Shown here: positions 1 to 64,000 of the stretch, piece by piece | How positions within the stretch are numbered: position 1 is the stretch's first letter | Layout of the letters: the number at the start of each line of letters is the position of its first letter | Assembly: GCF_000483485.1 (NCBI RefSeq) | Contig: NZ_KI519609.1 | Coordinates: forward strand, 169,026 to 233,025 | Reading direction: 5' to 3' | Origin: Thiomicrorhabdus chilensis DSM 12352 | GTDB lineage: Bacteria; Pseudomonadota; Gammaproteobacteria; Thiomicrospirales; Thiomicrospiraceae | Length of the DNA: 64,000 nucleotides | Notes under the pieces: generated by a model | Seen by the model: only the letters and a program-made list of their open reading frames with translations | Told to the model about the DNA's origin: nothing | The model's database searches: none | Translations under genes and position numbers: made by a program

Positions 1-135
1 GCAGCGGTCCGCGCTGGAGCAGATGCTTGTGAACGTGTAGGTGACGGATTGGTTGCTGCACACATCATTGCCCGTCCACACAAAGAAGTGGAACCTGTCC
101 TTGAAATGGACGGAAGCGGTGCAAAGCGCAGTTAA
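1..135 (+). CDS. csoS1: CsoS1-type carboxysome shell protein, C-terminal 44 residues (partial)
   Basis: The frame is open from the left edge to TAA at 133-135. The visible end has the alpha-carboxysome hexamer signature: an Ala/Gly-rich helix with DACERVGDGLVAAHIIARPH, then an acidic and basic tail. Single BMC-domain CsoS1 proteins form the flat hexagonal facets of the carboxysome shell. Which paralogue this is (A, B or C) cannot be told from the fragment. It is the first visible gene of the cso operon and is followed after 43 bp by the ferritin-like gene. Family assignment is confident; the start lies outside the window. Confidence 0.93.
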   Translation, partial: AAVRAGADACERVGDGLVAAHIIARPHKEVEPVLEMDGSGAKRS

Positions 136-178
136 TAGAGAGGGGAGTTTAGGCTCTCCATATCGAGAGGAGTAAGTT

Positions 179-727
179 ATGCGTTATCAACCACGAATGC
201 AAGGCAGTGTTATGCCTGGTTCCGGTAGCTATCCTCGTTTTGAGACACCGCAGCAGATGGGTGGAAACTCAAGAGTATTGGGTTATTTAGGTAGAGCGTT
301 GAGCTTGGAGTTTTCTGCAGGCCAACACTATTTAGCTCAGGCTTCCTTAGCAAAGTTTCGAAATGAAATGAATTACGCGCAAGGTTTTGTGACCTTGGCG
401 AATGAAGAGTTTCAGCATGCTAACTTATTAACCGATCGTATGGTCGCTCAGGGCGCTTTGCCATCTGGCAGCGTACTGAGCCCGGCTACTCCGGCCAGTT
501 CGATTGCCGAAGCCTTGAGAAGTTGTGAAGCCAGAGAGTTGGCTTTGATTCAGCTTTATGGTGAGGCAACTCAATATTGCGCCAACATGGGAGCCGCTGA
601 AGACCATGCGTTATTCAGCCGTCTTCTAGAAGAAGAGCAGGCACAGTTAATGAGAATTAACGGTTGGCTGGAAGAGTTTTACCATTCAATGCAGGTGAAC
701 CAGGCGCCGTCAAGGGGCTTTGTATGA
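179..727 (+). CDS. carboxysome-operon ferritin-like (bacterioferritin-related) protein
   Basis: This is a 182-residue four-helix ferritin-like protein. Likely metal ligands are E44 in helix 1 and E76/E77 with H80 (NEEFQHA) in helix 2; glutamates recur in the last helix (LLEEEQ). The first ~35 residues are a flexible Gly/Ser/Gln-rich leader absent from ordinary bacterioferritin. Genes of this type follow csoS1 in many chemoautotroph cso operons; their exact role in or near the carboxysome is not settled. The start is supported by GAGAGGAG 8 nt upstream. The stop overlaps the start of the next gene (ATGA), indicating translational coupling. Confidence 0.85.
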   Translation: MRYQPRMQGSVMPGSGSYPRFETPQQMGGNSRVLGYLGRALSLEFSAGQHYLAQASLAKFRNEMNYAQGFVTLANEEFQHANLLTDRMVAQGALPSGSVLSPATPASSIAEALRSCEARELALIQLYGEATQYCANMGAAEDHALFSRLLEEEQAQLMRINGWLEEFYHSMQVNQAPSRGFV

Positions 728-984
728 ACGAGCGTTGGAAAACGAAAAAAAAGCCCGCCTCTTTAGAGGCGCGGTTTGAATTCGACGAGTTTGAAGTTTT
801 AAGAGCTTTTTTGGATGAGTTGGCTGAACAGGCCGATCGCCTTGAGCATCACCCTAATATCAGTTTTGGGCGTAATCATGCTTCAGTGGTGATCTATTCA
901 ACAGAAGCGGAACTTCAACCCATTGATCTCGAGTTAGCCGAAAGCATTGATGAAGGCTATAACCGAGTGACCAAAATTTCATAA
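724..984 (+). CDS. acRAF: alpha-carboxysome Rubisco assembly factor (acRAF, pterin carbinolamine dehydratase-like)
   Basis: This 86-residue protein has the pterin-4a-carbinolamine dehydratase fold signature EHHPNISFG near residues 40-48, followed by a beta strand and a short helix. In cso operons this paralogue acts as a chaperone for Rubisco assembly rather than as a dehydratase; that role comes from family knowledge. The ATG at 724 overlaps the preceding stop (ATGA), which fixes the start. A longer in-frame start 60 bp upstream would run through the preceding gene and is not favoured. The next gene begins 10 bp downstream. Confidence 0.85.
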   Translation: MNERWKTKKKPASLEARFEFDEFEVLRAFLDELAEQADRLEHHPNISFGRNHASVVIYSTEAELQPIDLELAESIDEGYNRVTKIS

Positions 985-994
985 GGAGCAGGGT

Positions 995-1291
995 ATGACG
1001 ACTGTAGATGAAACCATAGAAACCTGGTCTGCGGCGAAGACATCATCGTCTACCGGCAGCACAACCCAGACTAAATCGGCTAATAAAACTGCCGAGCAGA
1101 AAGTGGCTGACAATAAAACGTCACCTGCAAAAGCGACACAATCTAAATCTAGCCCTTCTCCAAAAAGAAAGGCACCTGCAACCCGCAAAACGACAAGTCG
1201 TCCAAAAAAGACTGCGACTGCGGTTGTAAAAAATGAACATATTGCCGATCAGGTACAAGTGTTTCCAAGCAAGCGAGTATGGCCTGATTGA
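995..1291 (+). CDS. disordered basic protein, McdB-like carboxysome positioning factor (candidate)
   Basis: This 98-residue protein has no globular domain visible. Residues 10-75 are almost only Thr, Ser, Lys, Ala, Pro and Gln, and strongly basic (PKRKAPATRK). The last residues are VFPSKRVWPD, with a single tryptophan third from the end besides W11. Small disordered proteins with an invariant C-terminal Trp in cso operons are McdB, which works with the ParA-type ATPase McdA to space carboxysomes over the nucleoid. No mcdA lies beside it: a terminator and sbtA follow. The start has AAGGAGCAGGGT upstream. The McdB call is inferred from composition, C-terminal Trp and position only. Confidence 0.5.
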   Translation: MTTVDETIETWSAAKTSSSTGSTTQTKSANKTAEQKVADNKTSPAKATQSKSSPSPKRKAPATRKTTSRPKKTATAVVKNEHIADQVQVFPSKRVWPD

Positions 1292-1318
1292 GTATGTTTC
1301 TGAATTGTCTTAGCCATT

Positions 1319-1350
1319 GAGGGTACCCTTCGGTTGTACCCTCTTTTTTT
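1319..1350 (+). terminator. intrinsic terminator ending the cso operon
   Basis: The stem GAGGGTAC / GTACCCTC (1319-1326 and 1336-1343) encloses the 9-nt loop CCTTCGGTT and is followed by seven T residues. It lies 28 bp after the McdB-like gene, so the sbtA block downstream should have its own promoter. Confidence 0.92.
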
Positions 1351-1532
1351 ATCTGTCAATACACCTCAAATAGCGCGATTTAGCATGGAGGTAGGACAGT
1401 GTATTTTATAAAAATAATCCATTCACTGTTCTCTATAGCAGAGCGTTGAAATTTCAATTTCTCTTCTATGGGTCTTTTCAATATTATGAGAGCCATCGAA
1501 GTGATTGTGATGGCAATTAAAGGAGAAAAGTC

Positions 1533-2540: not shown

Positions 2541-2548
2541 AGGAGAGT

Positions 2549-2863: not shown

Positions 2864-2875
2864 GAGTCGATTGAT

Positions 2876-3487
2876 ATGAAGACCTTGATTTTGGCCACCG
2901 GCAATCCACATAAAGTTAAAGAAGTGCATGCCATGCTCGAGGAGTATGATTTTGATGTGCATTTGCAGACTGATTTTTTCTGTGAGGAAGTGGAAGAAGA
3001 TGGTTTGAGTTTTGTGGAAAACGCTCTGAAGAAGGCGCGTTTTGCCAGTCAGAAGACAGGCCTGCCGGCTTTGGCCGATGATTCCGGTTTGGAAGTCGAG
3101 GTTTTAGGCGGAGAGCCGGGCATTTATTCGGCTCGTTATGGTGAGGGTTATCAAGGTCAACCCGCTTCGGATGAATTAAACAACCGCAAGTTGCTCGATG
3201 CTTTGAAAGGCTTGCCATACAAACAACGAAAAGCGTGTTATTACTGTGCCATGGTGTTTGTCCGCCATGCAACCGATCCCGTGCCGATTATTGGCGTAGG
3301 GCAGTGGTGTGGTGAGATTTTGATGGAACCGCGAACCGAGTATGGCGTGGGCTATGATCCCATTATGTGGATGCCGCAACATCTTAGATCGGCATCGGAG
3401 ATACCGCTGGAGGTCAAAAACCAAGTGAGTCATCGCGCCCAAGCACTGCGTCAGGTGCTACAACAATTACAACAGGAACGCTTATGA
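2876..3487 (+). CDS. carboxysome-cluster HAM1/RdgB-type nucleoside triphosphate pyrophosphatase
   Basis: This 203-residue protein has all HAM1-family landmarks: N-terminal ATGNPHK substrate loop, catalytic [11 protein letters not shown] around residues 66-76, GVGYDPI near 163 and SHRAQAL near 185. The family hydrolyses (d)ITP, XTP and related noncanonical nucleotides to monophosphates. A second, more typical paralogue lies at 39171-39764. This copy differs by an insert after YSARYGEG and by GVGYDPIM instead of GFGYDPIF. HAM1 genes are known satellites of alpha-carboxysome loci, with unknown purpose. Its stop overlaps the csoS1D start by 4 nt (ATGA), so the two are tightly coupled. Confidence 0.9.
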
Positions 3488-4089: not shown

Positions 4090-4207
4090 TACGATTTTAG
4101 TCACAATTATTGCATTTAGTTATACAGGTTATTTGCAAAAAATTATACGTTAATGGCAATTTACTGGTAATTTATGTTCTAACACTTTCAACTTGAGGAA
4201 AGTTGAC
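4090..4207. promoter_or_regulatory. AT-rich intergenic region before the CbbR-type gene
   Basis: This 118-bp AT-rich spacer between csoS1D and the LysR gene contains two TTATAC copies about 29 bp apart and TTACTGGTAA, consistent with a promoter and LysR-type T-N11-A sites. No single binding site can be fixed by eye, so this is a weak regulatory call. Confidence 0.3.
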
Positions 4208-5182: not shown

Positions 5183-5183
5183 G

Positions 5184-5213
5184 TTGAAAATAGGCAGGCC
5201 TGTCCGTTTTCGA
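5184..5213. repeat. CAGGCCTG palindromic element (both arms present)
   Basis: The core CAGGCCTG is at 5195-5202, flanked by TTGAAAATAGG on the left and TCCGTTTTCGA on the right; 11 of 15 half-site positions pair. It lies between the convergent cbbR and spoT genes and may serve as a shared weak terminator. Confidence 0.7.
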
Positions 5214-5239
5214 CGGCGGGTTGAACGAGCTTCGTTGAT

Positions 5240-8984: not shown

Positions 8985-9010
8985 CAAAACAAGCAGGCCT
9001 GCTTGTTTTG
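8985..9010. repeat. CAGGCCTG palindromic element, perfect 26-bp inverted repeat
   Basis: The half-site CAAAACAAGCAGG is followed immediately by its exact complement, with core CAGGCCTG at 8994-9001. Read on the minus strand it can fold into a stem ending in TTTTG, resembling an intrinsic terminator between kdsB and waaA. Confidence 0.85.
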
Positions 9011-9855: not shown

Positions 9856-9880
9856 ATAATCAGGCAGGCCTGCTGATTTT
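9856..9880. repeat. CAGGCCTG palindromic element
   Basis: The core is at 9865-9872 in the 97-bp gap between kdnB and kdsB. The arms AATCAGG and CTGATTTT pair imperfectly around it. It is one of a dispersed family. Confidence 0.65.
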
Positions 9881-13628: not shown

Positions 13629-14714
13629 GTGAAAACATTAACGGTGGATTTAGGGGATAGAAGTTACCCGATTTTTATTGGTGAAGATATTTTGGGCCAA
13701 GCCGATTTGGTTAAGCCTTATGTAAAAGGTACACAGGTTCTCATTGTGACCAATACCACCGTTGCACCGCTCTATCTCGAGCAATGCAAACAGGCGTTTG
13801 CCGATTTTGAGGTGGAAGCGGTGATTTTGCCGGACGGTGAGCAATACAAGAACCTTGAGGTTTTGAATCAGGTTTTCGATGCGCTCATCGGCAAACGTTT
13901 TGATCGTAGTTGTACCTTGGTGGCACTCGGCGGTGGTGTGATTGGCGATATGACCGGGTTTGCAGCGGCGGCGTTTCAGCGCGGCGTGAATTTCATCCAG
14001 ATTCCGACGACTCTGCTTTCGCAAGTCGATTCTTCGGTGGGGGGGAAAACCGGTGTCAATCACCCTTTGGGTAAGAATATGATCGGCGCCTTCCATCAGC
14101 CTCAATGCGTGATTATTGACACCAAAACCCTGAATACGCTCGAAGATCGTGAGCTTTCAGCAGGCCTGGCGGAAGTGATTAAGTACGGTCTGATTGGCGA
14201 CACCCCGTTTTTTGAATGGCTGGAAAGCAATCTGGAAGCCGTTATGCAGCGTCAGCCCCAAGCTTTGGCCGAGGCGATTGAACGCTCTTGTGCCAATAAG
14301 GCACGTATTGTGGCTTTGGACGAGAAAGAATCCGGCATGCGAGCGCTATTCAATTTGGGTCATACGTTCGGCCACGCGATCGAGGCGGGCATGGGTTACG
14401 GTAAATGGCTGCACGGTGAAGGTGTCAGCGCCGGCACCATGCAGGCCGTGTATATGTCGCAATTGATGGGGCAGCTGGATCAGGCCGATTTTGATCGCAT
14501 TAAGGCGATTTTCGAACGCGCCAAACTGCCAGTTTGCCCACCTTCGGTAAACGATATGCCTAATGAAAAGTATCTGGATCTGATGGCGGGAGACAAGAAA
14601 GTTCAGGCGGGGACCATCCGTCTGGTGCTGTTGAAACGCATTGGCGAGGCCTATGTGACGGGCGATTATCCGGCCGAATTGTTACAGCGTACTCTGAGTG
14701 AGTGGCGCTGTTAG
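13629..14714 (+). CDS. aroB: 3-dehydroquinate synthase
   Basis: This 361-residue enzyme has the NAD/glycine segment [15 protein letters not shown] near residues 97-112, the catalytic lysine region [11 protein letters not shown], and zinc ligands in [20 protein letters not shown] and LHGEGVSAG. It converts DAHP to 3-dehydroquinate. The start is GTG with a modest AAGAGAG SD. A copy of the CAGGCCTG palindrome at 14161-14168 falls in the coding sequence (SAGLAEV). Confidence 0.95.
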
Positions 14715-14786: not shown

Positions 14787-15692
14787 ATGCCGGAAGCTTA
14801 TCGCAGTCAATTCAATGCCAAGAACGTCCGTTTCTCGATGCGAGATCATCTGATGATGATTGAGGTGGACAACGATTATGCGCAAGCCACCATCACCACA
14901 CATGGCGCATCGGTATTGAGCTATGTTCCCAAAAACCAATCCGATGGCACTCAGGATTTGTTGTGGGTCAGTTCCAGTGCTGTCTTTAACGGTCAGAAAG
15001 CGGTACGTGGCGGGATTCCGGTTTGTTGGCCCTGGTTCGGAAAAGCAAAATCGGCAGGCCTGCCCGCGCATGGCTTTGTTCGCAATCTTGTCTGGCATTT
15101 GGATCATGTAGCCGATTTGGAATCGGGTGTGACCGAGGTGGTGTTGAGTTACGATGCTGATGAACATACCTTGGCCATTTGGCCGCATCAGTTTCATTTG
15201 CAGCTGCGTATCGAAATCGGCGAAAAGTTGATTCTGTCCCTGACCACCACCAATCTCAACGATCACGACCTGGAAATCACCGAGGCGTTGCACACCTATT
15301 TCAATGTGGCTGACCCAAGGGGCTTGGTGATTCACGGACTGGAAGGCAGCACGCACCTGGATAAACTCAATGAACAGGCGCCTGCCGAAATCCAGCAAGA
15401 GCCTGTCGTGTTGCATCCACCTATGGATTCGGTCTATCTTAATCAGTCAGGCGACGTGATCCTTGACGACAGTGGCCATCAGCGTCGCATTTTGATTGAA
15501 AACCGGCAGACGACGTCTGCGGTGGTCTGGAATCCTGGGCCTGAAATCGTTAAGGGCTTTGATGATATAACGGATGATGGCTGGCTGCAGTTCGCCTGCG
15601 TGGAGAGCGGCAATGTGCTTAATAATGCGGTGATTGTGCCAGCCGAACAAAAGCATACCTTTAGCGTAATGCTTTCGGCTTTGCCCGCTTAA
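14787..15692 (+). CDS. D-hexose-6-phosphate mutarotase (YeaD-like aldose epimerase)
   Basis: This 301-residue galactose-mutarotase-fold protein contains GIPVCWPWFG near residues 75-84, the conserved PAHGFVRN histidine and EALHTYFNVAD, which carries the second histidine. The family interconverts anomers of glucose-6-phosphate. SD AAAAGGAAGG precedes the ATG. A CAGGCCTG copy at 15055-15062 is embedded here and encodes part of SAGLPAHG, just before the active-site His. No close functional partner is adjacent. Confidence 0.85.
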   Translation: MPEAYRSQFNAKNVRFSMRDHLMMIEVDNDYAQATITTHGASVLSYVPKNQSDGTQDLLWVSSSAVFNGQKAVRGGIPVCWPWFGKAKSAGLPAHGFVRNLVWHLDHVADLESGVTEVVLSYDADEHTLAIWPHQFHLQLRIEIGEKLILSLTTTNLNDHDLEITEALHTYFNVADPRGLVIHGLEGSTHLDKLNEQAPAEIQQEPVVLHPPMDSVYLNQSGDVILDDSGHQRRILIENRQTTSAVVWNPGPEIVKGFDDITDDGWLQFACVESGNVLNNAVIVPAEQKHTFSVMLSALPA

Positions 15693-15720: not shown

Positions 15721-15742
15721 TTTGAAAACGGGCAGGCCTGTC
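15721..15742. repeat. CAGGCCTG palindromic element, left arm only
   Basis: The core at 15733-15740 is preceded by TTTGAAAACGGG, the left arm of the dispersed element; the right arm is absent. It lies between the convergent mutarotase and DUF1275 genes. Confidence 0.65.
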
Positions 15743-18452: not shown

Positions 18453-19634
18453 TTAGAAGGTGACTTTGACGGCGTTGGCGACGTTTTTGGCTTTTTCAAT
18501 CGCTTTTTCAATGGTATCGTCGCGTGCGATGGCGACGCCCATACGGCGGCGGCCATTAATGTCAGGTTTACCGAACAGGCGGATTTGAGTATCCGCTTCA
18601 GCCAGGGCGTTGTCCAAGTTGGAAAAGCTGGTTTGCGTGGAATGCCCGGTTGGTAGAATGACGCTGGAGGCTGAAGGGCCGTGCTGGGCGATGTTTGGAA
18701 TCGGCAGACCAAGAATGGCACGGGCGTGCAAAGCAAACTCGGAGAGGTCCTGCGACATCAGGGTCACCAGACCGGTGTCGTGCGGTCGTGGAGAAACCTC
18801 GCTAAAGTAAACCTCGTCGCCTTTAATAAAAAGCTCCACGCCAAATAGACCGCGTCCGCCAAGCGCGTCGGTGACGTCTTTGGCAATTTGCTGGGATTTC
18901 TCCAAAGCCACTTGACTCATTGGATGCGGTTGCCAGGATTGGCGGTAATCGCCGTCTTCTTGGTAGTGGCCAATCGGTTCGCAAAAACGGGTGCCATGAA
19001 TATGACGCACCGTCAGCAAGGTAATCTCATAATCGAAGTCCACAAAGCCTTCAATGATCACTCGTCCCTTGCCGGCACGGCCGCCTTCTTGAGCGTAGGA
19101 CCAGGCCTGCTCGATTTGGTCTGCCGATTTTATGACACTCTGGCCTTTGCCGGAAGAGCTCATAATGGGCTTAACCACGCAAGGCATGCCGATGCGCTCG
19201 ATTGCGGCGTTAAAGTCTTCCAGGGTGTCGGCAAATTCATAAGGAGAAGTGGGGATTTTCAGCTCTTCGGCGGCCAAGCGGCGGATGCCTTCGCGATTCA
19301 TTGTCAATTGAGTGGCACGGGCTGTCGGAATAATGGTGACGCCTTGTTGTTCCATTTCAGCTAAGGTATCGGTTGCGATGGCTTCAATTTCCGGAACCAC
19401 ATAATGCGGTTTTTCTTCTTCAATCACCTTCCTTAATGCATCGCCGTCGAGCATCTCGATTACGTGGGAACGGTCTGAAACCTGCATGGCTGGGGCATTT
19501 TCGTAGCGATCGACGGCAATGACCTCTACCCCGAGGCGTTGCAGTTCAATGGCAACTTCCTTGCCCAATTCACCTGCACCACAGAGTAAAACACGGGTGG
19601 CGGTTGAAGAAAATGGTGTACCAATGCTAGACAT
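18453..19634 (-). CDS. purT: formate-dependent phosphoribosylglycinamide formyltransferase PurT
   Basis: This 393-residue ATP-grasp enzyme begins with a Rossmann-like [20 protein letters not shown], has the ATP-binding [15 protein letters not shown] near residues 150-165 and the metal region [10 protein letters not shown] near 265-275. PurT makes formyl-GAR from formate and ATP in purine synthesis. SD AAAGGAG lies 5 nt before the ATG. It is divergent from the GGDEF gene at 19783. A CAGGCCTG copy (19102-19109) is in its coding sequence. Confidence 0.95.
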
Positions 19635-19782: not shown

Positions 19783-21318
19783 ATGTTAGAGCTTCGTAAA
19801 TCAGATAAACATCAGCAGCCCAAGTCTGTTGGCATGTTGCTTGAGGACGACCGCGTTAGAACCTCAAAAATGATTGCACGCAGTGAAGAAGAGAATCGCG
19901 CTGACGTCAAAAAAATGATGGGCTCTTTGCAGAAACGCTTTTCACATACCGCAGACCTTCCCGAAGAGATTGCCAAAATGGTTGAAGATCAGGTGCAGAT
20001 GCGTACTCGTGACTTGTTCCGTCAAGCCAATTACGATGCCTTAACGCATCTGCCGAACCGTACTTATTTTGGCGAGACATTGGAAACTGTGTTGGAGCGG
20101 GCTAAAGCGGCCGGTTCGGAATTCAGTCTACTGTTTTTGGATTTGGACGGTTTCAAAGCGATTAACGATACCTTGGGTCATCATGCTGGAGATGAGTTAT
20201 TGCAGCATGTGGCGGCGCGTTTGGTTTCGTCGGTTCGTGAAGGGGACATTGTCAGTCGCCGAGGTGGCGACGAATTTGTCATCCTTTTGACAGACCTTTC
20301 CAGCCGTGAAGACATCGTCAATATCTGTAAACGTATTATTAATGAAGTCAGTCGCCCTTATTGGCTGGAACAAAGAGAAGCCAATATCTCCACCAGCATC
20401 GGCGTGGCGCGTTACCCTTTAGACGGTGTGACCCCTTCCGAATTGATGGAGCATTCCGATTCGGCACTGTATGTGTCTAAATCAAGCGGCCGTAAAACCT
20501 TCCGCTTTTATGATGAAGTGATGAGTGTCGTGCCGGCTCAGTCGCATGAATTGCAGGCAGAGTTGTTGGACGCAATTGAACAGGGAGGCATTCAGACCTG
20601 TTTTGAACCCCAAGTTGAGCTGAAGTCCGGCCAGATTGTTGGAGCAAGTTTGACAGCCTGCTGGCATAACGATCATTTGGAAACGCCTTATTTGAATGGC
20701 TGGATGGAGCTGTTGGTAAAGAGTGGCCAATCGCGTTCAGTGGCCAGTTGGTTGTTGGATTCGGCACTGTATTACCTTCAGCAGTGGCAATCCCAGCAAA
20801 GTGAGTTGGTCGTGTCGGTTCCCGTGCTTGACAGCTTGTGGTTGCATGATGATGTGGTGGTCATGCTCGACAGTCGTTTGCAGAGCATGAAACTGGGTCG
20901 TGAACAGTTGCAGTTGGAATTCTCATTGGCTTCATTGCAGAGTGTCGACGGCAAATTGAAGCAGACCTTAATTGCATTGGGTCAGGCCGGTTATCAGATT
21001 ACTTTGACGGAGGTCGGTGCCTATCCTTTGGATTTGGCTCTATTGTCGAGCCTGCAATTGAATGAGATCAAGTTGGACAGAGCCTGGTTGCAGACGTCTA
21101 TGCAATCCAAAAGTGGGCAGGCCTGGTTGCAAGGATTGATTCAAATGGCGAAAAGCCTGGATATTTGTGTGATTGCAAGCGGATTGGATTCGAGCGACCA
21201 GGTTCGTCAGTTACGTGAGTGGGGCTGTTTGATGGGGCAAGGCAAGGTATGGAGCCAGCCGATTGAAGCGCAACGTTTCAATGCCCATTTGATGGCGCGT
21301 TCACGTGTAGGTGTTTGA
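19783..21318 (+). CDS. GGDEF diguanylate cyclase with degenerate C-terminal EAL domain
   Basis: This 511-residue soluble protein has a coiled N-terminus (1-80), a GGDEF domain (~85-245) with the intact RRGGDEF active site and the inhibitory-site motif REGD five residues before it, and an EAL-like domain (~255-505). The EAL domain has lost its catalytic residues: ASL in place of EAL, LEFSL in place of LEITE, and the usual DDFGTGYSS is TEVGAYPLD. It should make but not break c-di-GMP; the EAL part may bind ligand or protein. It is divergent from purT and followed by a strong terminator. No transmembrane segment is visible. Confidence 0.85.
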   Translation: MLELRKSDKHQQPKSVGMLLEDDRVRTSKMIARSEEENRADVKKMMGSLQKRFSHTADLPEEIAKMVEDQVQMRTRDLFRQANYDALTHLPNRTYFGETLETVLERAKAAGSEFSLLFLDLDGFKAINDTLGHHAGDELLQHVAARLVSSVREGDIVSRRGGDEFVILLTDLSSREDIVNICKRIINEVSRPYWLEQREANISTSIGVARYPLDGVTPSELMEHSDSALYVSKSSGRKTFRFYDEVMSVVPAQSHELQAELLDAIEQGGIQTCFEPQVELKSGQIVGASLTACWHNDHLETPYLNGWMELLVKSGQSRSVASWLLDSALYYLQQWQSQQSELVVSVPVLDSLWLHDDVVVMLDSRLQSMKLGREQLQLEFSLASLQSVDGKLKQTLIALGQAGYQITLTEVGAYPLDLALLSSLQLNEIKLDRAWLQTSMQSKSGQAWLQGLIQMAKSLDICVIASGLDSSDQVRQLREWGCLMGQGKVWSQPIEAQRFNAHLMARSRVGV

Positions 21319-22106: not shown

Positions 22107-22624
22107 AGTTCGTTACCCAGCGCTTGAAGTTTGTCTTTGCTTAGGGCGATATCAGCGTTTTTATTAACGCCAATGCCATGGTCGATAATCTCCTGGGCAA
22201 TGGCTTTGGCCTCTTCCAGCGAATGCATCACAAAAGTACCGCACTGGTATTCATTCAGTTCCGGAATGTCTTCCATACGCTCCACCTTGAGTACGTCTTG
22301 CATTGAAGTCAGCCAGGCCTGAGCAACACGTTCTTCAGAAGGGGTGCCTAGCAGGCTCATGTAAAAACCGGTACGGCAACCCATTGGGCTGATGTCGATG
22401 ATTTCCACGCCATCGCCATTCAGGTGGTTGCGCATGAATCCGGCAAACAGGTGTTCCAGGGTGTGGATTCCTTTTTCGCCCATCATCGACTCGTTGGGCT
22501 TATTGAAACGCAAATCGAAAACGGTGATGGTATCGCCCGATGGTGATTGCATTGTCTTGGCGACACGCACGGCGGGGGCATTCATAATGGTATGGTCAAC
22601 GGTAAAGCTGTCTAATAATGGCAT
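22103..22624 (-). CDS. luxS: S-ribosylhomocysteine lyase
   Basis: This 173-residue enzyme has metal ligands H54 and H58 in HTLEH and C128 in EYQCGT, all at standard LuxS positions. It cleaves S-ribosylhomocysteine to homocysteine and DPD, the precursor of autoinducer-2. Coupling with mtnN makes a complete SAH recycling pair; whether AI-2 is sensed cannot be told here. A lipoprotein gene ends 16 bp downstream of its start side on the same strand. A CAGGCCTG copy is at 22314-22321. Confidence 0.96.
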
Positions 22625-23324: not shown

Positions 23325-25778
23325 TTAGGTTAACGATTTTAATTCCGATACTTTGAAAAATGCCATGGCCTCTTTCATGGTATGTGATTCATTCAGCATC
23401 TGTGTTGAAGCTGAAGAGGTCTCTTCTGCAAGTGCCGCGTTTTGTTGAGTGATTTCATCAATATTGGCAATTGCCGCGTTCACTTGTTCAATGCCCTGTT
23501 GTTGTTCCATGGAGCCTTTGGCAATCTGTTCGATCATATTGCTCACTTCGTAAATGGCTTGGTTGATCTCATCTAAGGAGCGACTGGTCTCTTCTACTTG
23601 TTTTTCACCCGCTTCAACTTGAGTCACGCTGTTTTCAATTAAAGTCTTAATGGTACTGGCGGCTTCAGCCGATTTTTGCGCCAGGTTGCGAACCTCCCCG
23701 GCTACGACCGCAAATCCACGCCCGTGCTCTCCGGCCCTGGCGGCCTCTACCGCTGCGTTGAGTGCAAGCAGATTGGTTTGGAAGGCGATGCTGTCGATCA
23801 AAGAGGTGATTTCTGAAATCTCATGGCTGGATTGAGTGATTTGAGACATGGAATCCTGGGCGCGTTGCACAACTTCCATACTTTTTTGCGATTTTTCGCG
23901 AGCGGCGTGCGACATCTGATTGGCATCCTGGGCCGATTCCGTATTGGAACGGATGGTGGCGGTGATTTCTTCGAGTGCGCTGGCGGTTTCTTCCAGGCTG
24001 GCTGCTTGTTGTTGAGTTCTATCCGACAAGCTGTCGCTGCCTTCATTGACTTGGGTGATCATCAGAGAGACCGACTTGGTCGATGCTTGAAGATGTGTGA
24101 CGGTTTTGGACAGGCCTGTTATGGCACGGTTTACGTTTGCTGTGAGTTCGGCGAAACGGCCTTGGTAGTCTCCGCTGATTTGCACGTTTAAGTTGCCTTC
24201 TGCCTGTGCCTGGGTCACGCGACTGATATCATCGATGGAGTCTGCAATGACATCGATGGTCGTGTTGATGGCCTGTTTCATCTCGTTTAACTGCCCCGGC
24301 AACTCGACGGCGATACGGTTTTCAAGTTGACCTTGGCTGACGGCTTGCATGACCTTGTTGGTTTCGCTGACAAATTCGTTAAGTAAGGTCACCGTTCGGT
24401 TTACCGAATCGGCGGCACCTGCGAACTCCCCTTTTAGTTCCAGTTGGATTTGTTGAGAAAAGTCCCCGGAAGAGAGCGAGCGGTTGACCTGATTCAGTTC
24501 CTTGAAGATCGCATTGATTTGGTTGACTGTATGATTGATGTTGCCCTTCATGTCATCGAAATCACCTACAAGATCGGTTTGCACCTGTTGATCAAAGTTA
24601 CCATTTGCCAGGTTACCCATCACGGATTTAATCTCTTCGATCGCTTGGTGTTGAAGGCTTAACATATCGTCAAAGGCGCGTGCCATTTGACCTATTTCAT
24701 CGGTCGATGTGATATTGGCTCTTTGCGAGAAGTCGCCTTTTTTATGGACATCAATAATGGTGTTTTTAAGATGCTCAATCGGGGTATTAACTTTTCTGGC
24801 AATATAAATCACGATAAAACTTGAAAATATCAGGCTGGCTAGGGTGGCGGCAGAGGTGCTGTTAATCAACAAGTCAGCACTGTCCTGGATCTGCTGGGTA
24901 TCTCGTCGGGTTCCGCTCCATACCGTTTCCTGCAGGCGCTGTGACCCATCGATTAATTGGGTTGTGATGTCAACCAGGGCGACGTCGGTCAGGGAGGTCA
25001 GGGATTTTAAATCCATTTTAAGTCTAAAAAGCGCACGGTTGATCTTATTGGTTGCGATAAATACCGCTTTGATCAACTCTTTTTCGCCTGAGTGGAGAAA
25101 TTGGTTGGTCTGCATCAATTTGATGGCTGCTTTAAGATCGTTGATTTCTAAACTTAAACGCTCAAAGTCGTTTTTGTCGCGGGAATTGAAGTAGCGCAAG
25201 GTGTATTGCTGGACGATGTTTAAGGTCTGGATTGCATAGGAAGTCTGTTCATCCAGGGTTTCATCGGTGTTGGTTTGGCTGATAAGTTCGAGTTTCATCA
25301 GTGCATCCGGCGCTAAGTCTTTGGTGATCGCATTGAGTTTGTCTAAAGCATTTGTGGCTTTGGGAAGTATTTTGTTAATGGCCAGACCAAAATAGGTTTG
25401 GTTGGCTTCTTCAATGGAGGTGAGAAGTTCAGATTCCTGTTCGCCCAGCGGGTAAAGTTTGAGCTCTTCCTGCAACCAATGCGCACGCTCTCTTAGTAGT
25501 TTAAGCTCTTTCGCAAAGCGCTCATCGTAGGTCAAGAGGTAACGGTTAATCAGTATCTGCGCTTGTTGGGTGTTTTTCACCAGGTTTGTGGAAAGACTGG
25601 CGACAGGGATGGACGTCTCCTTTACCGTATCCGATGCATCCAGGATTTTGCTTGAATTGAAGTAGGTGATCCCTCCGATGACCAGCATCATCGCAATGAT
25701 CATAAATGGCCCGATGGACAGTTTTGTAGACATTTTTAGATTGGAAATGATTCCTGTAAACTTCTTGGTTTCAGACAT
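23325..25778 (-). CDS. methyl-accepting chemotaxis protein with poly-HAMP array
   Basis: This 817-residue chemoreceptor has TM1 (~20-42), a helical periplasmic domain (~45-305), TM2 (~308-330), then a HAMP ([12 protein letters not shown]) and four further HAMP-like repeats up to about residue 555, recognisable by GNFDQQV, GDFSQQI, GQLENRI and GNLNVQI. The signalling hairpin contains [20 protein letters not shown]. No CheR-tethering pentapeptide is seen. It lies 11 bp after the periplasmic repeat protein gene, its likely partner. A CAGGCCTG copy is at 24111-24118. The ligand is unknown. Confidence 0.92.
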
Positions 25779-28790: not shown

Positions 28791-30791
28791 ATGCGCCTAA
28801 GCATCAAGCATTTCATGCTGCTGATCATTTTTTCCTTGTTGGGATTTCTGTACGGAATTTTTGCGGATTATTATCAGGAACAGCAGGAGCATACCGCAGA
28901 AGTCATTTTGGGGAGTTTGCAGGACGACATGTCAGAAATCAGTTATTTGCTCTCCAAAGACATTCAGGACAAAAAGGGAGTGCGGACTTCACGCGCCCTT
29001 TTGGACCGGGCAGTGTCCAATAATGATTTTATTAAGGCCATTATGATTCTGGACGACCAGCGTGTTCTTTTGACAACGGATCCGCGCTATCGTCACGCGC
29101 CTGCCAAAAGCGCGGTCTTTTTGGATCCTGCCCTAAGTGCCCAGGAGCAGTTGTCGGATAATAAGGGGTTTGAAGGGGTTATCCGTTTTTATCAGGGTAA
29201 GGATCTTCAAAAGCTGACTTTAGTGTTTTTGTTTGACAAGCAGGAAGTAGCCACTTATCTAAGCCATAACAGTTCGAAATTTCTAATCAATTTTGGCGTG
29301 ATGCCGGGTTTGATTATATTGCTTATTTGGTTGCTGTTAAGCCACTTCATTATTAAACCTTTGGAACGCTTGCGACAATACGCCTACTACCAAAGTGAAA
29401 TTCCCAAGGCGCTAAACCTCAGAGAATTAGAGTCGATTCGTAGCTCCATGGCGCAGACCTTTTCACGTCTTGATAATGAGCAAAAAGAGCTGTTTAAGAT
29501 GGCGCGTACCGACTCTTTGAGCGGCTTGGCTAATCGGCATGCCTTGAATGAACATTTAAAACGTTTGATTGCCGATGCATCGCGCAAACAGGAAGAGTTT
29601 GCGTTTCTGTTTTTGGATTTGGATAATTTTAAAGCGGTCAATGATGCATTGGGTCACCATATTGGTGACGAGTTATTGCAACAGGTGGCCTCGGTCATTG
29701 CCGAGGTGTTGAGAACCAACGACTTTGTGGCACGCGTCGGAGGGGATGAGTTTGTGATTGTCTTGCATGATTATCAATCGCTCACCGAACTTTCTAATGT
29801 AATCGAGAGAATTCAGGATCGCTTGAAAATGACTTGGTTGATTCAGGAGCATCCCATCAATATAACCAGCAGTATTGGGATCGCACTTTATCCTAAAGAT
29901 GCCCAAGACATGATTGGATTGATGCAGTGTTCCGATATTGCGATGTATGAGGCGAAGAAAAAAGGTCGTGCCCAGCATCATTTTTACACTGAGCAGTTGA
30001 ATGTCACGGTGCAAGAGACCATCGCGCTGGATAAAGCCATGCGTCAGGCGCTGAAGAAGGATGAATATCAACTGTATTATCAACCTAAGGTGAATTTGCA
30101 TAGCGGAAAAATCGTCGGTGCAGAGGCTCTGATACGCTGGATCAGCCCAACGCAGGGCATGGTTCGTCCCGATGTATTCATCCCTTTGGCAGAAGAGAAC
30201 GGTTTTATTGTCGAGCTGGGGCAATGGGTGCTAAAAGAGGCGTTTCATCAGCAGAAGGCCTGGAAAGAACAGGGTATTGATTTGCCGATTTCAATCAATG
30301 TGGCGGCACAGCAGTTGCTCAATGATCGGTTTGAGTCACAGTTCCAGGCGTTATTGGAGGAGACTGGAGTTGATCCCCAACGCATCAATCTTGAGATTAC
30401 CGAGTACCTGTTTCTGGATCAGAGTGAAAATAACTTCAATGTCTTAAGCCGTTTGCGCAGCCGAGGGGTGTCGATTTCCTTGGATGATTTTGGTACCGGT
30501 TACTCTTCCTTGTCTTACTTGAAGAAATTCCCAATTGACCACCTTAAGATAGACAAGGCGTTTGTGGATGATTACAACACGCCCGATGGCGCGGTGTTTC
30601 TGGAAACCATTGTCAAGATGGGGCAGTCTTTGAATATGCAGGTCATTGCCGAAGGTGTTGAAACCGAAGCACAGGCTCGTTATTTGAAACAGATCGGCTG
30701 TATCTATTACCAGGGTTATTTCTGTTCCAAACCCTTGCCTGTAGAAGAGTTTATTGCTTTTTATGGAAATCACCAGGCCTGCTCAGTTTGA
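28791..30791 (+). CDS. membrane GGDEF-EAL c-di-GMP enzyme
   Basis: This 666-residue protein has TM1 (~6-24), a periplasmic domain (~25-160), TM2 (~165-188), a short HAMP-like linker, a GGDEF domain (~235-400) and an EAL domain (~410-660). GGDEF is intact (RVGGDEF) with inhibitory-site RTND. The EAL domain keeps GAEALIRW, NLEITEY, DDFGTGYSS, KIDKAFV and AEGVETEA, so phosphodiesterase activity is expected. It follows the SBP gene by 1 bp. The stop is preceded by a CAGGCCTG copy (30774-30781) that encodes part of the terminal HQACSV. Confidence 0.93.
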   Translation: MRLSIKHFMLLIIFSLLGFLYGIFADYYQEQQEHTAEVILGSLQDDMSEISYLLSKDIQDKKGVRTSRALLDRAVSNNDFIKAIMILDDQRVLLTTDPRYRHAPAKSAVFLDPALSAQEQLSDNKGFEGVIRFYQGKDLQKLTLVFLFDKQEVATYLSHNSSKFLINFGVMPGLIILLIWLLLSHFIIKPLERLRQYAYYQSEIPKALNLRELESIRSSMAQTFSRLDNEQKELFKMARTDSLSGLANRHALNEHLKRLIADASRKQEEFAFLFLDLDNFKAVNDALGHHIGDELLQQVASVIAEVLRTNDFVARVGGDEFVIVLHDYQSLTELSNVIERIQDRLKMTWLIQEHPINITSSIGIALYPKDAQDMIGLMQCSDIAMYEAKKKGRAQHHFYTEQLNVTVQETIALDKAMRQALKKDEYQLYYQPKVNLHSGKIVGAEALIRWISPTQGMVRPDVFIPLAEENGFIVELGQWVLKEAFHQQKAWKEQGIDLPISINVAAQQLLNDRFESQFQALLEETGVDPQRINLEITEYLFLDQSENNFNVLSRLRSRGVSISLDDFGTGYSSLSYLKKFPIDHLKIDKAFVDDYNTPDGAVFLETIVKMGQSLNMQVIAEGVETEAQARYLKQIGCIYYQGYFCSKPLPVEEFIAFYGNHQACSV

Positions 30792-34066: not shown

Positions 34067-34087
34067 ACCAGGCCTGCCGGTTTTCAG
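34067..34087. repeat. CAGGCCTG palindromic element, right arm
   Basis: The core at 34069-34076 is followed by CCGGTTTTCAGG, the right arm of the dispersed element. It lies between the fructosamine kinase-like gene and adk. Confidence 0.65.
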
Positions 34088-34116: not shown

Positions 34117-34998
34117 TTATCCCTGTTGGAGCAGTTGCTCGATGGTGCCTTGTGCTTGTTGGGCGTAGTGGCCGCCAAACAGATTGTAGTGGTTTAGGAT
34201 GTGGTAGAGGTTGTACAGCGGCTTGCGTTTGGCATAGTCGCGGTCAAGCGGGAAGACTTCATTGTAGCCGGCGTAGAAGGCGTCGGAAAAACCACCAAAC
34301 AGTTCGCTCATGGCCAAGTCGGTTTCGCGGTCGCCATAATAGCAGGCCGGGTCAAACACCACCGCGTCGCCGCTGGTGGTGAAGGCGCTGTTGCCGCCCC
34401 ACAGGTCGCCATGCAGTAGTGACGCTTCCGGTTGATAGTTTTGAAACCAGTTTGGCAGTCGCTCGATGAGTTCGCAGCCCAGTTCGTAAAGTTGTCGCGG
34501 GGCATCGTTGAGTTGTGTCATTTCCAGCTGAGGGCGCAGGCGCTCTTCACCATAAAATCCGACCCAGTCGCTGTGCCAGCGATTTAATTGAGGGGTATGA
34601 CCGATATAGTTGTTCTCGAACCAGCCGAACGGTTTGGTTTCGTGGTTAATTTGATGATGCATCAAAGCAAGATCGCGTCCACGTTGAAAATCGTCGCCTT
34701 TGGAGGTTAATTGCAGGTGTTCCATCAATAACCAGGCCTGCTCATTATGCCGACCGAAGCCCAGCGGTTTTGGGCAGAGAATACTGCCTGAGCGTGTAAT
34801 GGCGCGCAGGTTATGGACTTCGGTTTCGAAAAGCGGCAAGGCCTCAAGGTGGTTGAGTTTGAGGAAATAGTTGCCTGTGTGCGTGTGGAGTTTGAACGCC
34901 TGATGGATGTCGCCGCCAGATACCGGTGCTGCCGTTTCGATGTGGATGCTTTGCGATAAGGTCTGGGAGAGGGTGTGTGAAAATTCTTTCCAGTTCAT
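34117..34998 (-). CDS. fructosamine kinase family protein
   Basis: This 293-residue aminoglycoside-phosphotransferase-fold kinase has a nucleotide-site lysine segment (NYFLKLN, about residues 42-48), the catalytic LLHGDLWGGN near 193-202 and the metal-binding DPACYYGDRE near 215-224. Fructosamine-3-kinase relatives phosphorylate glycated (Amadori) amines and promote repair of glycation damage. It is encoded downstream of mrcA on the same strand (80-bp gap). A CAGGCCTG copy is at 34733-34740. No other partner is visible. Confidence 0.88.
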   Translation of the reverse strand: MNWKEFSHTLSQTLSQSIHIETAAPVSGGDIHQAFKLHTHTGNYFLKLNHLEALPLFETEVHNLRAITRSGSILCPKPLGFGRHNEQAWLLMEHLQLTSKGDDFQRGRDLALMHHQINHETKPFGWFENNYIGHTPQLNRWHSDWVGFYGEERLRPQLEMTQLNDAPRQLYELGCELIERLPNWFQNYQPEASLLHGDLWGGNSAFTTSGDAVVFDPACYYGDRETDLAMSELFGGFSDAFYAGYNEVFPLDRDYAKRKPLYNLYHILNHYNLFGGHYAQQAQGTIEQLLQQG

Positions 34999-39102: not shown

Positions 39103-39118
39103 AACCAGGCCTGCCGAG
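39103..39118. repeat. CAGGCCTG palindromic element
   Basis: The core at 39106-39113 is in the divergent yicC / rdgB intergenic region, preceded by AAC and followed by CCGAGATTG. Its arms are poorly preserved. Confidence 0.55.
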
Positions 39119-39780: not shown

Positions 39781-39825
39781 TTAGGCAGGCCTGCCCGGTT
39801 TTGTAAAAAATAAGCAGGCCTGTCG
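39781..39825. repeat. two CAGGCCTG palindromic elements in tandem
   Basis: Cores lie at 39786-39793 and 39815-39822. The first is GGCAGGCCTGCC followed by CGGTTTTG. They sit between the convergent rdgB and metallo-beta-lactamase genes and could act as a shared terminator. Confidence 0.75.
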
Positions 39826-42077: not shown

Positions 42078-42100
42078 ACCAGGCCTGCCGGTTTTCAAAA
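42078..42100. repeat. CAGGCCTG palindromic element, right arm
   Basis: The core at 42080-42087 is followed by CCGGTTTTCAAAATG, a well-kept right arm that runs into the ribosome-binding region of hemW. Confidence 0.7.
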
Positions 42101-42113: not shown

Positions 42114-43262
42114 GTGAATTTTACCCAACCTATTCCATTGAGTTTATATGTGCACTATCCCTGGTGTGTGCAGAAATGTCCCTATTGCGACTTCAATTCC
42201 CATACTTTGAAAGCCCAGGCTGATGAGTCCGCTTATATTGAGGCCTTAATCAAACAGTTGGAGCTGACTTTGCCGCATATTTGGGGGCGTCCGATTCGCT
42301 CCATCTTTTTTGGCGGAGGCACCCCAAGCCTGATTTCAGAAGCGGGTTTGAACCGGTTTTTATCTCAAGCCCGCGCACTGCTGGGGTTTGGGCCTGAGAT
42401 TGAAGTGACGCTGGAGGCCAATCCCGGGACGGTGGATTTTCAAAAATTCGCCGGGTTTCGTGAGGCCGGGATAAACCGACTGTCGATGGGCATTCAGAGT
42501 TTTGACGATGAAAAGTTGCAGGCTCTGGGACGTATTCACAGCTCCAAAGAAGCGTGTCTGGCGATTGATGCGGCGCGTCATGCCGGGTTTGATAACTTCA
42601 ATCTGGACTTGATGTTTGCCCTGCCTGGCCAGACGCTTGAACAAGCCGTGGCCGATGTGGAAATGGCGCTGGGATTTGAGCCTCCCCATCTGTCACATTA
42701 TCAGTTGACCTTGGAACCGAATACGCCTTTCTATAAACAGCCTCCGGTGTTGCCCGACGAGGATCTCGCCTGGGAAATGCAACAGGCCTGTCAGTTGCGT
42801 CTGGCTGAAAGCGGATATCAGCATTATGAGGTCTCCGCTTACACCCAGCCTAACCGTAACTGTCAGCACAATCTCAATTATTGGCAGTTTGGCGATTACA
42901 TCGGTTTGGGAGCAGGGGCGCACGGCAAAATCACTGATCCGCCCCAGGGGCAGATATGGCGCACGCAAATGCCCGCTTCCCCAGGGGCTTATATTGAAGA
43001 GATGAAAACGGCCAGACCGGGACGAACCCACCAGCTTGATAAGCAGGATGCGGTGTTTGAATTTATGCTTAACGCCTTGCGCCTGCAGGATGGTTTCGAT
43101 TTATCGCTGTTTACCGCCCGAACCGGTTTGCCATTGACGGAGTTGAGACCGCAGTTGACTGAAATGCAAACCAAAAACTGGGCAAAAATAGACAATAACC
43201 GTTTGTGTTTAACGTCTTTAGGGCAACAATATTTGAATGATGTGGTAGGGTTGTTTCTATAA
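42114..43262 (+). CDS. hemW: radical SAM heme chaperone HemW
   Basis: This 382-residue radical SAM protein has cluster cysteines C18, C22 and C25 (CVQKCPYC) near the N-terminus, the SAM GGGTPSLI motif near 65-72 and ends with the HemW C-terminal winged-helix-like region (residues ~310-380). It lacks features of oxygen-independent coproporphyrinogen oxidase HemN and belongs to HemW, which binds heme and delivers it to membrane proteins. GTG start with GAAGAGAG upstream. A CAGGCCTG copy is at 42784-42791. Confidence 0.9.
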   Translation: MNFTQPIPLSLYVHYPWCVQKCPYCDFNSHTLKAQADESAYIEALIKQLELTLPHIWGRPIRSIFFGGGTPSLISEAGLNRFLSQARALLGFGPEIEVTLEANPGTVDFQKFAGFREAGINRLSMGIQSFDDEKLQALGRIHSSKEACLAIDAARHAGFDNFNLDLMFALPGQTLEQAVADVEMALGFEPPHLSHYQLTLEPNTPFYKQPPVLPDEDLAWEMQQACQLRLAESGYQHYEVSAYTQPNRNCQHNLNYWQFGDYIGLGAGAHGKITDPPQGQIWRTQMPASPGAYIEEMKTARPGRTHQLDKQDAVFEFMLNALRLQDGFDLSLFTARTGLPLTELRPQLTEMQTKNWAKIDNNRLCLTSLGQQYLNDVVGLFL

Positions 43263-50821: not shown

Positions 50822-50859
50822 AAAAAATACCAGGCCTGTTCATTTTCAACAGGCCTGGT
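50822..50859 (-). terminator. terminator built from two inverted CAGGCCTG elements
   Basis: ACCAGGCCTGTT (50829-50840) pairs perfectly with AACAGGCCTGGT (50848-50859) across the 7-nt loop CATTTTC. On the minus strand it is followed by a T-run, so it ends the nuclease-fold gene at 50878. Cores are at 50831-50838 and 50850-50857. Confidence 0.92.
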
Positions 50860-56716: not shown

Positions 56717-57346
56717 ATGGTATTGCAAGTCAATCAGCTCAAAGCGAAAGGGATGCGCCAAGCGGTGAGCTTTAGCGTGCCTGCGGAGCAGTTGGTGTTG
56801 TTGTACGGCGTTTCGGGTACCGGTAAATCGGTATTGATGCGTGCCTTGGCAGACCTGATTGTCCATGAAGGTGAAGTGCTTCTGGACGGAGTTGAGCAGA
56901 GAGGGCTGTGTCCAGAGAACTGGCGCAGGCAGGTGATGTACTTTTCGGCGGAAACCGCCTGGTGGCGAGAGACGGTCGAAGAGCACTTCGAAACGCTGCC
57001 GTCGGCGGAAACATTGCATAAACTCGGATTGGATAACGATTATCTGAAACGTTCGGTCAATAGCCTGTCTAGCGGCGAGAAACAGCGACTGGCTTTGCTG
57101 CGTGGTTTGCTTTACGAACCGCGGGTGTTGTTGCTGGATGAGATCACCGCCAACTTGGATTTTGACAGCGCTTTAGATGTCGAGAAAATGGTGTTGGATT
57201 ATAGTCGTCAACATCAGGCTGGCGTTTTGTGGGTCAGTCATGACCAGGCACAGCAGAAGCGACTGGCCGACTCTGAATGGCTCTGGGATATCGAAGATTT
57301 GTACGCGGGCAGGCCTGCTGAAAATTCAGGAGGAGTCGCCGAATGA
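56717..57346 (+). CDS. fetA: ABC transporter ATP-binding protein, FetA (YbbL) type
   Basis: This 209-residue ATPase has Walker A GVSGTGKSV, signature SSGEKQR, Walker B LLLDEIT and H-loop WVSHD. With FetB it forms an iron exporter family complex tied to oxidative stress resistance. ATG 56717 is chosen after GGATAGGG; an alternative ATG is at 56702. It is 5 bp after uvrD and overlaps fetB by 4 nt. A CAGGCCTG copy at 57310-57317 encodes part of its C-terminus (AGRPAEN). Confidence 0.85.
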   Translation: MVLQVNQLKAKGMRQAVSFSVPAEQLVLLYGVSGTGKSVLMRALADLIVHEGEVLLDGVEQRGLCPENWRRQVMYFSAETAWWRETVEEHFETLPSAETLHKLGLDNDYLKRSVNSLSSGEKQRLALLRGLLYEPRVLLLDEITANLDFDSALDVEKMVLDYSRQHQAGVLWVSHDQAQQKRLADSEWLWDIEDLYAGRPAENSGGVAE

Positions 57347-58830: not shown

Positions 58831-58850
58831 TTGAAAACAAGCAGGCCTGG
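58831..58850. repeat. CAGGCCTG palindromic element, left arm
   Basis: The core at 58842-58849 is preceded by TTGAAAACAAG, the left arm. It lies between the convergent rhodanese and diguanylate cyclase genes. Confidence 0.7.
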
Positions 58851-58862
58851 TTAAGATTGCTC

Positions 58863-60336: not shown

Positions 60337-60355
60337 GACAGGCCTGCTTGTTTTG
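60337..60355. repeat. CAGGCCTG palindromic element, right arm
   Basis: The core at 60339-60346 is followed by CTTGTTTTG, the same right arm as in the perfect copy at 8985-9010. It is downstream of the Aer-like receptor gene. Confidence 0.7.
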
Positions 60356-60417
60356 TGAAAGAGGGGTGGGCGCATCGTTTGCAGGATGCGCCGGATTGGA
60401 AAAGGAATGAAAGTCGA

Positions 60418-63312: not shown

Positions 63313-63486
63313 AGTCAAACATTCCACTGATAATTTTAGGGTTTTGTACAAAGGCTGTAAGCTGTTTTCTAGCTTTTGTATCAGTGCAATACTATAGCCC
63401 GAACGGAGGATGAATGCCATGCCTTACAGGCAATAAGGTCATAAAAATTAAGATTTTATTGAGGGCTGTTATAAAATTTACAAATG

Positions 63487-63532
63487 AGCAGGCCTGTCGG
63501 TATTGAAAATGGACAGGCCTGTTGGTTTTGAA
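63487..63532. repeat. two CAGGCCTG elements forming an inverted pair
   Basis: Cores are at 63489-63496 and 63514-63521. CAGGCCTGTC and GACAGGCCTG can pair across a loop containing TTGAAAATG, the same loop sequence found in the pair at 50829-50859. It separates the Aer-like receptor start from the acyltransferase-type gene. Confidence 0.75.
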
Positions 63533-63560
63533 CGGAGTTTTATTCAATCCCAGAGCGTTT

Positions 63561-64000
63561 TCAGGCTCCGATAGGGGTCAGGTAACGCTGCTTTTTCTTG
63601 GGTTTGATTTTGTCGAGTTCTACCAGAATCAGGCTGTCGATGCAGTCGCCAAATTCGGGGTCGACACTGAAATCGATGAATCGGCAGCCCTTGTCTTCGC
63701 ACAATTCGGCGTATTGTTTGAATAGGGTCGGTACTTTGACGCCTTCCAGATCAAGCAACGCATTGAGTTTTTTGAAGCTGGTTTTATAGTCGTCTGCAAA
63801 CACGCTTTCGGCAATCTGGCGGTTTTCTTTGCGGATTTTCACCGGGCGTTTTCCGACCGCCAGGTCTTGCTTGGAACCGAACTGTTGCTGATAAAAGCCG
63901 ATAATCAATTCTTTGGCGTTTTGCGGATAGGCGTCGCTTAGTGAAACCGGTCCGAACAGGTATTGGATGTGGGGGTGTTGCGCCACATAAGCGCCGATGC
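63561..64000 (-). CDS. hemolysin-like GNAT / lysophospholipid acyltransferase family protein, C-terminal part
   Basis: The frame is open to the right edge and ends with TGA at 63561-63563, giving about 145 visible residues. The visible part contains YLFGPVSLSDAYPQNAK, LIIGFYQQQFG, then VPTLFKQYAELCEDKGCRFI and DFSVDPEFGDCIDSLILV, a pattern I associate with the C-terminal half of proteins joining a PlsC-type acyltransferase domain to an ornithine-acyltransferase/hemolysin-like domain. These act in membrane lipid synthesis. The N-terminal part lies outside the window, so domain make-up is inferred. Confidence 0.7.
   Translation of the reverse strand, partial: IGAYVAQHPHIQYLFGPVSLSDAYPQNAKELIIGFYQQQFGSKQDLAVGKRPVKIRKENRQIAESVFADDYKTSFKKLNALLDLEGVKVPTLFKQYAELCEDKGCRFIDFSVDPEFGDCIDSLILVELDKIKPKKKQRYLTPIGA

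Follow-up and report, generated by a model that had tools for sequence, protein, structure and literature searches.

CAGGCCTG, an abundant palindromic word of Thiomicrospiraceae: probably an uptake-signal core with a secondary use as terminator

A 64,000-nucleotide stretch of the Thiomicrorhabdus chilensis DSM 12352 genome (contig NZ_KI519609.1, positions 169,026 to 233,025; referred to as the window) contains 26 copies of the 8-bp palindrome CAGGCCTG. The word is real and is found in four genera of the family Thiomicrospiraceae. By analogy with known systems, it is probably the core of a family of DNA uptake signals that are secondarily used as terminators, and uptake signals known from Pasteurellaceae and Neisseriaceae are closer to it than is the methylation-linked highly iterated palindrome HIP1. 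Self-recognition in DNA uptake by means of an abundant genomic word has been described for these two families (PMC12616744, PMC3630211).

Abundance, placement and flanks of the word

Dinucleotide shuffles of the window yielded 1.02 copies of CAGGCCTG on average (standard deviation 1.17, maximum 5), in agreement with the roughly one copy per random 64 kb estimated in the original prediction, and none of 100 shuffles reached 26. Under an order-3 Markov model CAGGCCTG was the top-ranked 8-mer of the window, with 2.2 copies expected. All 26 predicted sites were present, 25 at the predicted start and one at 42783 instead of 42784, and the proposed division into 15 intergenic and 11 coding copies was recovered with the open reading frame (ORF) list. 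The whole T. chilensis genome (G000; 2,443,034 bases, completeness 99.99) contained 900 copies, about 370 per Mb, as opposed to 26 copies of the control word consisting of the same letters reversed. Counts near the Markov expectation were thus found neither in the window nor, judged by the reversed word, genome-wide, and the description as a highly iterated palindrome with arms holds. Among the matches listed from the open-licence PMC literature, which does not cover subscription journals, there was no description of CAGGCCTG as a genomic element; this is weak evidence of absence, and the predictor likewise knew of no described family with this core. In 20 stretches of 20 kb spread over the genome the count varied from 0 to 12. 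The stretch with zero copies (C1:1,620,001-1,640,000), the sole motif-free island examined, encodes a tyrosine integrase, a 1544-amino-acid AAA protein and a 940-amino-acid protein with AAA and peptidase M41 domains.

To place the copies relative to genes, a simple ORF caller was applied to 464 kb of the T. chilensis genome (the window and the 20 stretches), which held 161 copies. Intergenic DNA made up 10.3% of this sequence and contained 67 of the copies (binomial p ~7e-25); the other 94 were in ORFs. Of the 61 copies flanked by two ORFs, convergent gaps (5.5 kb in total) had 22, co-directional gaps (26.6 kb) 31 and divergent gaps (13.4 kb) 8. The coding copies used frames 1, 0 and 2 in 51, 36 and 7 cases, respectively. 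In other genomes, the intergenic share was 28/86 in seven further genomes of the same genus, 15/41 in G024 and 19/33 in G021, in 7.7-10.4% of the sequence.

The flanks were scored for a T-tract, defined as at least three T among the four bases at +5 to +8 from the core, for which the background is 7.8% per side. A tract was present on at least one side of 20 of the 26 window copies. At 160 sites of the T. chilensis genome (window plus 20 stretches) it was found on one side in 84, on both sides in 33 and on neither in 43 cases, so that 117 of 160 had at least one. Tracts accompanied 60 of the 67 intergenic and 57 of the 94 coding copies; where a coding copy had a tract on one side only (47 cases), the tract pointed toward the 5' end of the gene in 31 and toward the 3' end in 16 (p 0.04). 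With both sides pooled, A occurred at +1 in only 2% and a pyrimidine at +2 in 92%. In one-sided copies C was found at +1 of the tract side in 71%, the opposite side having mostly G or T. The +1 preference thus differs between the two sides, and symmetry of the site is incomplete. Farther out on the tract side, at +18 to +24, there was a weak second stretch rich in A+T (0.60 versus 0.51 on the opposite side). The full signal of this genome is roughly 5'-RM-CAGGCCTG-YTSR-TTTT, followed 12-14 bases later by a weaker AT-rich stretch; profiles of palindromic spellings, including the first one made for this genome and the consensus lines, were oriented by score or tract and are partly circular for that reason. 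Of the symmetric arms originally proposed, conservation of the flank stood up. The flank consists mostly of a one- or two-sided T-tract and a conserved base or two, and perfect palindromes are seldom long: the copy at 8994 reaches 26 bp, the other 25 window copies 8-12 bp.

A tract on at least one side was also seen in other genomes: at 14/19 sites in G005 and G018 and 42/86 in seven other genomes of the genus (126/173 in T. chilensis in the same comparison), at 15/31 in Hydrogenovibrio, 3/6 in the genus g3, and 24/45 of the CCGGCCGG sites of G024 (for genus names and spellings see below).

RNA folding was compared with shuffles for 15 window stretches, which covered all but two of the 15 intergenic copies and 5 of the 11 coding ones. 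Three close intergenic pairs of CAGGCCTG folded far better than shuffles: 39786 and 39815 (39786..39822; z -3.9, a terminator-like hairpin), 50831 and 50850 (50831..50857; z -3.8), and 63489 and 63514 (63489..63521; z -6.3). So did the single intergenic copy at 8994..9001, which forms the 26-bp palindrome and has tracts on both sides (z -3.5). The remaining 11 stretches (6 intergenic, 5 coding) gave z values from -1.7 to +1.5; among the 12 stretches with a single copy (7 intergenic, 5 coding), the one at 8994 was alone in falling below -2. Six further close pairs were present in the 20 stretches of the genome. Terminator-like inverted pairs have also been reported for the uptake signal sequence (USS) of Pasteurellaceae and the DNA uptake sequence (DUS) of Neisseriaceae (PMC13020248). 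Termination, one of the functions proposed for the element, is supported by the predicted hairpins of the pairs and by the enrichment in convergent gaps, as a secondary role only.

Spellings of the word in the family

CAGGCCTG was counted in 62 genomes of the order, all of one family. In 32 of them 236-1173 copies were found, and in the other 30 there were 0-74. The motif-rich genomes comprised 15 of 32 in g1, the genus of the window, 9 of 9 in g5, 7 of 11 in g6 and the only genome of g3; g2, g4 and g28 together had none among 9. We take g1, g5 and g6 to be Thiomicrorhabdus, Thiomicrospira and Hydrogenovibrio. Twenty-one relatives of the same class outside the family had 0-222 copies, with controls up to 91.

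Two other spellings were first spotted in samples of genomes poor in CAGGCCTG, as ACCGGCCGGT in G024 and as AACAGGCCGGGT in G021. They were then counted in 37 whole genomes, the 25 further genomes of the order having been counted for CAGGCCTG only. ACCGGCCGGT occurred 1025 times in G024 and at most 15 times in the 36 others; ACCCGGCCTG, counted on both strands, occurred 596 times in G021, 346 times in G004 and at most 15 times in the 35 others. In the same register the three cores are CAGGCCTG, CCGGCCTG, in which one half-site is changed and which is asymmetric, and CCGGCCGG, in which both are changed and which is again palindromic. At most one spelling dominated in each of the 37 genomes. G021 and G004 retained 74 and 62 copies of CAGGCCTG (controls 20 and 15). 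G013 and G025, members of a clade adjoining G024, each had 15 copies of ACCGGCCGGT versus 3 and 2 of the control, and these copies are possibly relics.

The asymmetric core of G021 provided a profile whose orientation is set by the core itself and which is not circular. Of 33 sites, 25 carried the T-tract on the TG side and one on the opposite side, and a second T-rich stretch followed at +20 to +23. The single G004 copy inspected had the same layout. In G024 the consensus, oriented by the tract, was the core followed by T, an A-run and TTT. The strands were used alike by ACCCGGCCTG in G021, with 308 forward and 288 reverse copies genome-wide and 16 and 17 in six stretches. Five inverted pairs 20-24 bases apart were present in six stretches of G021, four of them with the tracts pointing outward. 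The extended USS of Pasteurellaceae are AAAGTGCGGTCAATTTT and AACAAGCGGTCAAATTT (PMC12616744); the core-then-tract layout of G021 resembles them, a likeness of sequence layout for which homology is not claimed.

A tree of 15 Thiomicrorhabdus genomes was built from three proteins (1089 columns, midpoint-rooted; one protein was missing for G021). G021 was placed beside T. chilensis and G005 (support 100), and G024 was sister to the motif-poor clade of G011, G013, G020 and G025 (97). The motif-poor genomes fell in three places, of which only that of G011, G013, G020 and G025 was firm, the other deep nodes having supports of 44-76. The tree has a midpoint root alone, and the direction of spelling change would follow from the presence of CAGGCCTG in three other genera.

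Five G021 sites could be aligned to the T. chilensis stretches, and all five had a CAGGCCTG-type core there. Four of them belonged to terminator-like pairs, which match one another genome-wide, so that their orthology is not clear; the fifth was coding, beside a PhoH-like gene. Conversely, five T. chilensis sites aligned to G021, where the sequence was CAGGCCGG in three, CCGGCCTG in one and CAAGCCTG in one, and seven aligned to G005, where it was CAGGCCTG in five, CAGGCCGG in one and CGGGCCTG in one.

No substitute word was found in samples of 40-59 kb from G003, G011, G013, G014, G020, G025, G026 and G031, and smaller samples of other motif-poor genomes contained nothing resembling one; these negatives are limited by sampling, and the samples of G002 and G069 were masked or mostly masked. 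Other repeats were seen in some relatives. The motif-poor Hydrogenovibrio genomes G064 and G068 share CCAGGTTGGG, repeated 6 and 7 times per 40 kb with about 0.1 expected, which is either another repeat or a different signal. Within 40 kb of G063, several 10-mers were each found 28 times and CACAGCGA was found 81 times, as a repeat array of some kind. The fragmented relatives G017, G028 and G029 had many poly-G/poly-C runs, and in G020 the short palindrome TTCACGTGAA was present three times in 40 kb, with 0.01 expected.

A probable uptake signal and alternative explanations

Among the functions suggested for the element beforehand, DNA uptake is favoured by its abundance, its tract and its dialects, and also by its intergenic enrichment, its inverted pairs and, as a single case, the integrase-bearing island devoid of it, the function itself being assigned by analogy. 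A receptor borne by a pilus would prefer the word on free DNA, and word-bearing pieces would be imported through ComEC and then recombined into the chromosome. Uptake bias and recombination together would accumulate the word where it is harmless, between genes and in tolerant reading frames. Inverted copies lying close together would act as intrinsic terminators, as would some of those with two tracts, and a change of the receptor would shift a species from one to another of the spellings CAGGCCTG, CCGGCCTG and CCGGCCGG.

As in the USS, copies are numerous (31-913 per Mb in 150 genomes, PMC12616744), an AT-tract in fixed register comes after the core, and dialects differ by a few bases; a further parallel is the use of copies in terminators, predicted here and reported for the USS (PMC12616744, PMC13020248). 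As in the DUS, each species generally has a single spelling, the spellings follow phylogeny, dialects are a few bases apart, some genomes of the family are without an obvious signal (PMC3630211), and terminator use is reported (PMC13020248). Unlike the USS core AAGTGCGGT, however, the core has another sequence here (CAGGCCTG) and is palindromic in two of three spellings. Unlike the DUS, the signal includes a T-tract, the CCGGCCGG spelling has lost the CTG that every DUS dialect conserves, and 900 copies per genome are at the low end compared with 943-5918 (PMC3630211).

Several observations weigh against an uptake signal. Neither of the known cores, AAGTGCGGT and GCCGTCTGAA, is a palindrome. 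In Thiomicrospira, 129 sites in 233 kb had mostly the form RS-CAGGCCTG-SY; a tract was present at 24 of them, near background, and 20 of the 129 were intergenic, in 8.8% of the sequence (p 0.01), so that most lie in genes. It may be that the tract and the terminator-like pairs were added later, or that the word has another role in this genus. ComEC, found in 33 of 37 genomes, was present in 19 of 21 motif-rich and 14 of 16 motif-poor genomes (motif-rich here and below meaning at least 236 copies of CAGGCCTG or one of the other spellings), and thus does not track the motif. The PilQ model had matches in 57 of the 62 genomes of the order, none of them over the cut-off, which was exceeded in 1 of 14 named control genomes. 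The only candidate receptor tested, the large minor pilin c477, was found (at least 260 bits) in 14 of the 18 Thiomicrorhabdus genomes rich in the motif, in 7 of the 14 poor in it and in none of 30 others, and was rejected for not tracking the motif. Its operon (C1:2,390,477-2,395,089) had appeared specific to motif-rich genomes when loci were compared, bar G003, and this was ruled out by the whole-genome search for the pilin. In the search for a receptor, the FimT/GspH model PF12019 matched in 3 of 37 genomes, all motif-poor. Finally, the literature matches listed included no report of natural transformation in any member of the family.

One alternative is that the word is bound by an abundant protein of chromosome organisation or recombination, either a nucleoid protein or a Chi-like system, with a dimer reading the palindrome. 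The palindromic core, the similar flank preferences on both sides and the chromosome-wide spread would suit it. We consider it unlikely, as it does not fit the asymmetric spelling of G021 and G004, the lack of strand polarity in G021, the presence, absence or respelling of the word within one genus, or the preference for convergent gaps. A Chi-type site is by definition non-palindromic and co-oriented with replication; CAGGCCTG is a palindrome in T. chilensis, and the two strands of G021 were alike, in counts that refer to strand and not to replication direction. Terminators or hairpins resembling repetitive extragenic palindromic (REP) elements, spread as repeats and nothing else, would account for the folding of the three window pairs and for the convergent gaps being richest in copies, but the same spelling inside genes cannot terminate, 94 of 161 copies are coding, and single copies rarely fold. 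This explanation is very improbable. The suggestion of small REP-type elements is not supported either, given the coding copies and the poor folding of single ones; REP elements and the related bacterial interspersed mosaic elements (BIMEs) are by definition confined to intergenic space.

A further alternative is maintenance of the word by a DNA methyltransferase with linked repair, as for HIP1. A GGCC-type enzyme could mark all spellings, as GGCC is common to the three, and two of them have a GC-rich palindromic core. Like HIP1, CAGGCCTG is an 8-bp GC-rich palindrome with hundreds of copies per Mb; other palindromes, the alternate HIPs, replace HIP1 in some cyanobacteria, and one-base deviations from HIP1 are mainly at the ends (PMC4390886). 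In the T. chilensis genome, one-mismatch variants were enriched for all three changes of the outermost base (38 versus 22.6 expected, 16 versus 11.6 and 14 versus 7.9; ratios 1.68, 1.37 and 1.77), while the ratios were 1.38 (CCGGCCTG, 33 versus 23.9), 0.80 and 0.60 at the next base and 0.28-1.13 at the inner bases. This pattern gives mild support to a HIP1-like word and speaks against an uptake signal. In addition, the Thiomicrospira copies are plain palindromes of up to 12 bp, mostly genic, and AGGCCT, with the full word masked, was slightly above expectation in T. chilensis (232 versus 190). On the other hand, the AGGCCT-containing words GAGGCCTC (6 versus 6.5) and AAGGCCTT (26 versus 24.6) were near expectation, and an asymmetric spelling with a one-sided tract is not expected of such a word. 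Intergenic enrichment and AT-tracts also distinguish it from HIP1. Methyltransferases of PF00145 (C5) and PF01555 had no match in the T. chilensis genome, where other families such as PF02384 and PF02086 were not searched. PF00145 was unmatched in 13 of the 21 motif-rich genomes, this one included, the eight counted as matched including G016, which was below the cut-off; G035 was the only Thiomicrospira genome searched. Nine of the 13 (G000, G010, G015, G018, G021, G022, G024, G027 and G033) also lacked a PF01555 match, in a search of 36 genomes that left out G001. On balance a methylation-linked word is improbable, and the HIP1-type element proposed at the outset is disfavoured in this sense, even though its mismatch pattern does resemble HIP1.

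Returning to the uptake signal, a more specific version is possible, though we hold it tentatively. It would be a further family of such signals with a palindromic core read half by half, whose spellings change one half-site at a time, so that a switch of specificity would be caught at successive steps in related species, and the route of uptake would be a pilus of the MSHA type and not the PilQ type. The three main PilQ-model matches of the T. chilensis genome fall on GspD, MshL and a Tad-like secretin, and the genome has an MSHA-type system with MshL (257.9 bits, cut-off 250.2) and an MshE-like ATPase. The Thiomicrospira genome G075 has an MshL-like secretin at 196.6 bits, below this cut-off.

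Remaining copies in the window and meaning for the family

Besides the three pairs and the copy at 8994, eight window copies are intergenic. The one at 5195..5202, with tracts on both sides, lies between the convergent ORFs 4193-5182 and 5240-7381, and that at 58842..58849, with a tract on the left, is likewise between convergent ORFs. The tract is on the right at 9865..9872, 34069..34076, 42080..42087 and 60339..60346 and on the left at 15733..15740; by the rule used, 39106..39113 has none. In the coding copies the tract is on the right at 3057..3064 (in ORF 2876-3487), 19102..19109 and 34733..34740, and on the left at 15055..15062, 21118..21125 and 42783..42790. The copy at 30774..30781, near the 3' end of ORF 28791-30791, has tracts on both sides, and no tract is present at 14161..14168 (in the aroB ORF 13629-14714), 22314..22321, 24111..24118 or 57310..57317. 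The window also encodes GGDEF/EAL proteins at 19783-21318, 28791-30791, 30835-33102 and 58863-60170, one of the four having been recognised by eye from its translation.

If CAGGCCTG and its variants are uptake signals, the origin, switch and decay of such a signal could be followed as a natural experiment in this family of sulphur oxidisers, where species of a single genus either have no detected signal or use one of three spellings. Comparison of genomes across the spellings would offer a route to the receptor. It would also be predicted that these bacteria can be transformed with DNA tagged with the word, which would aid their genetics.

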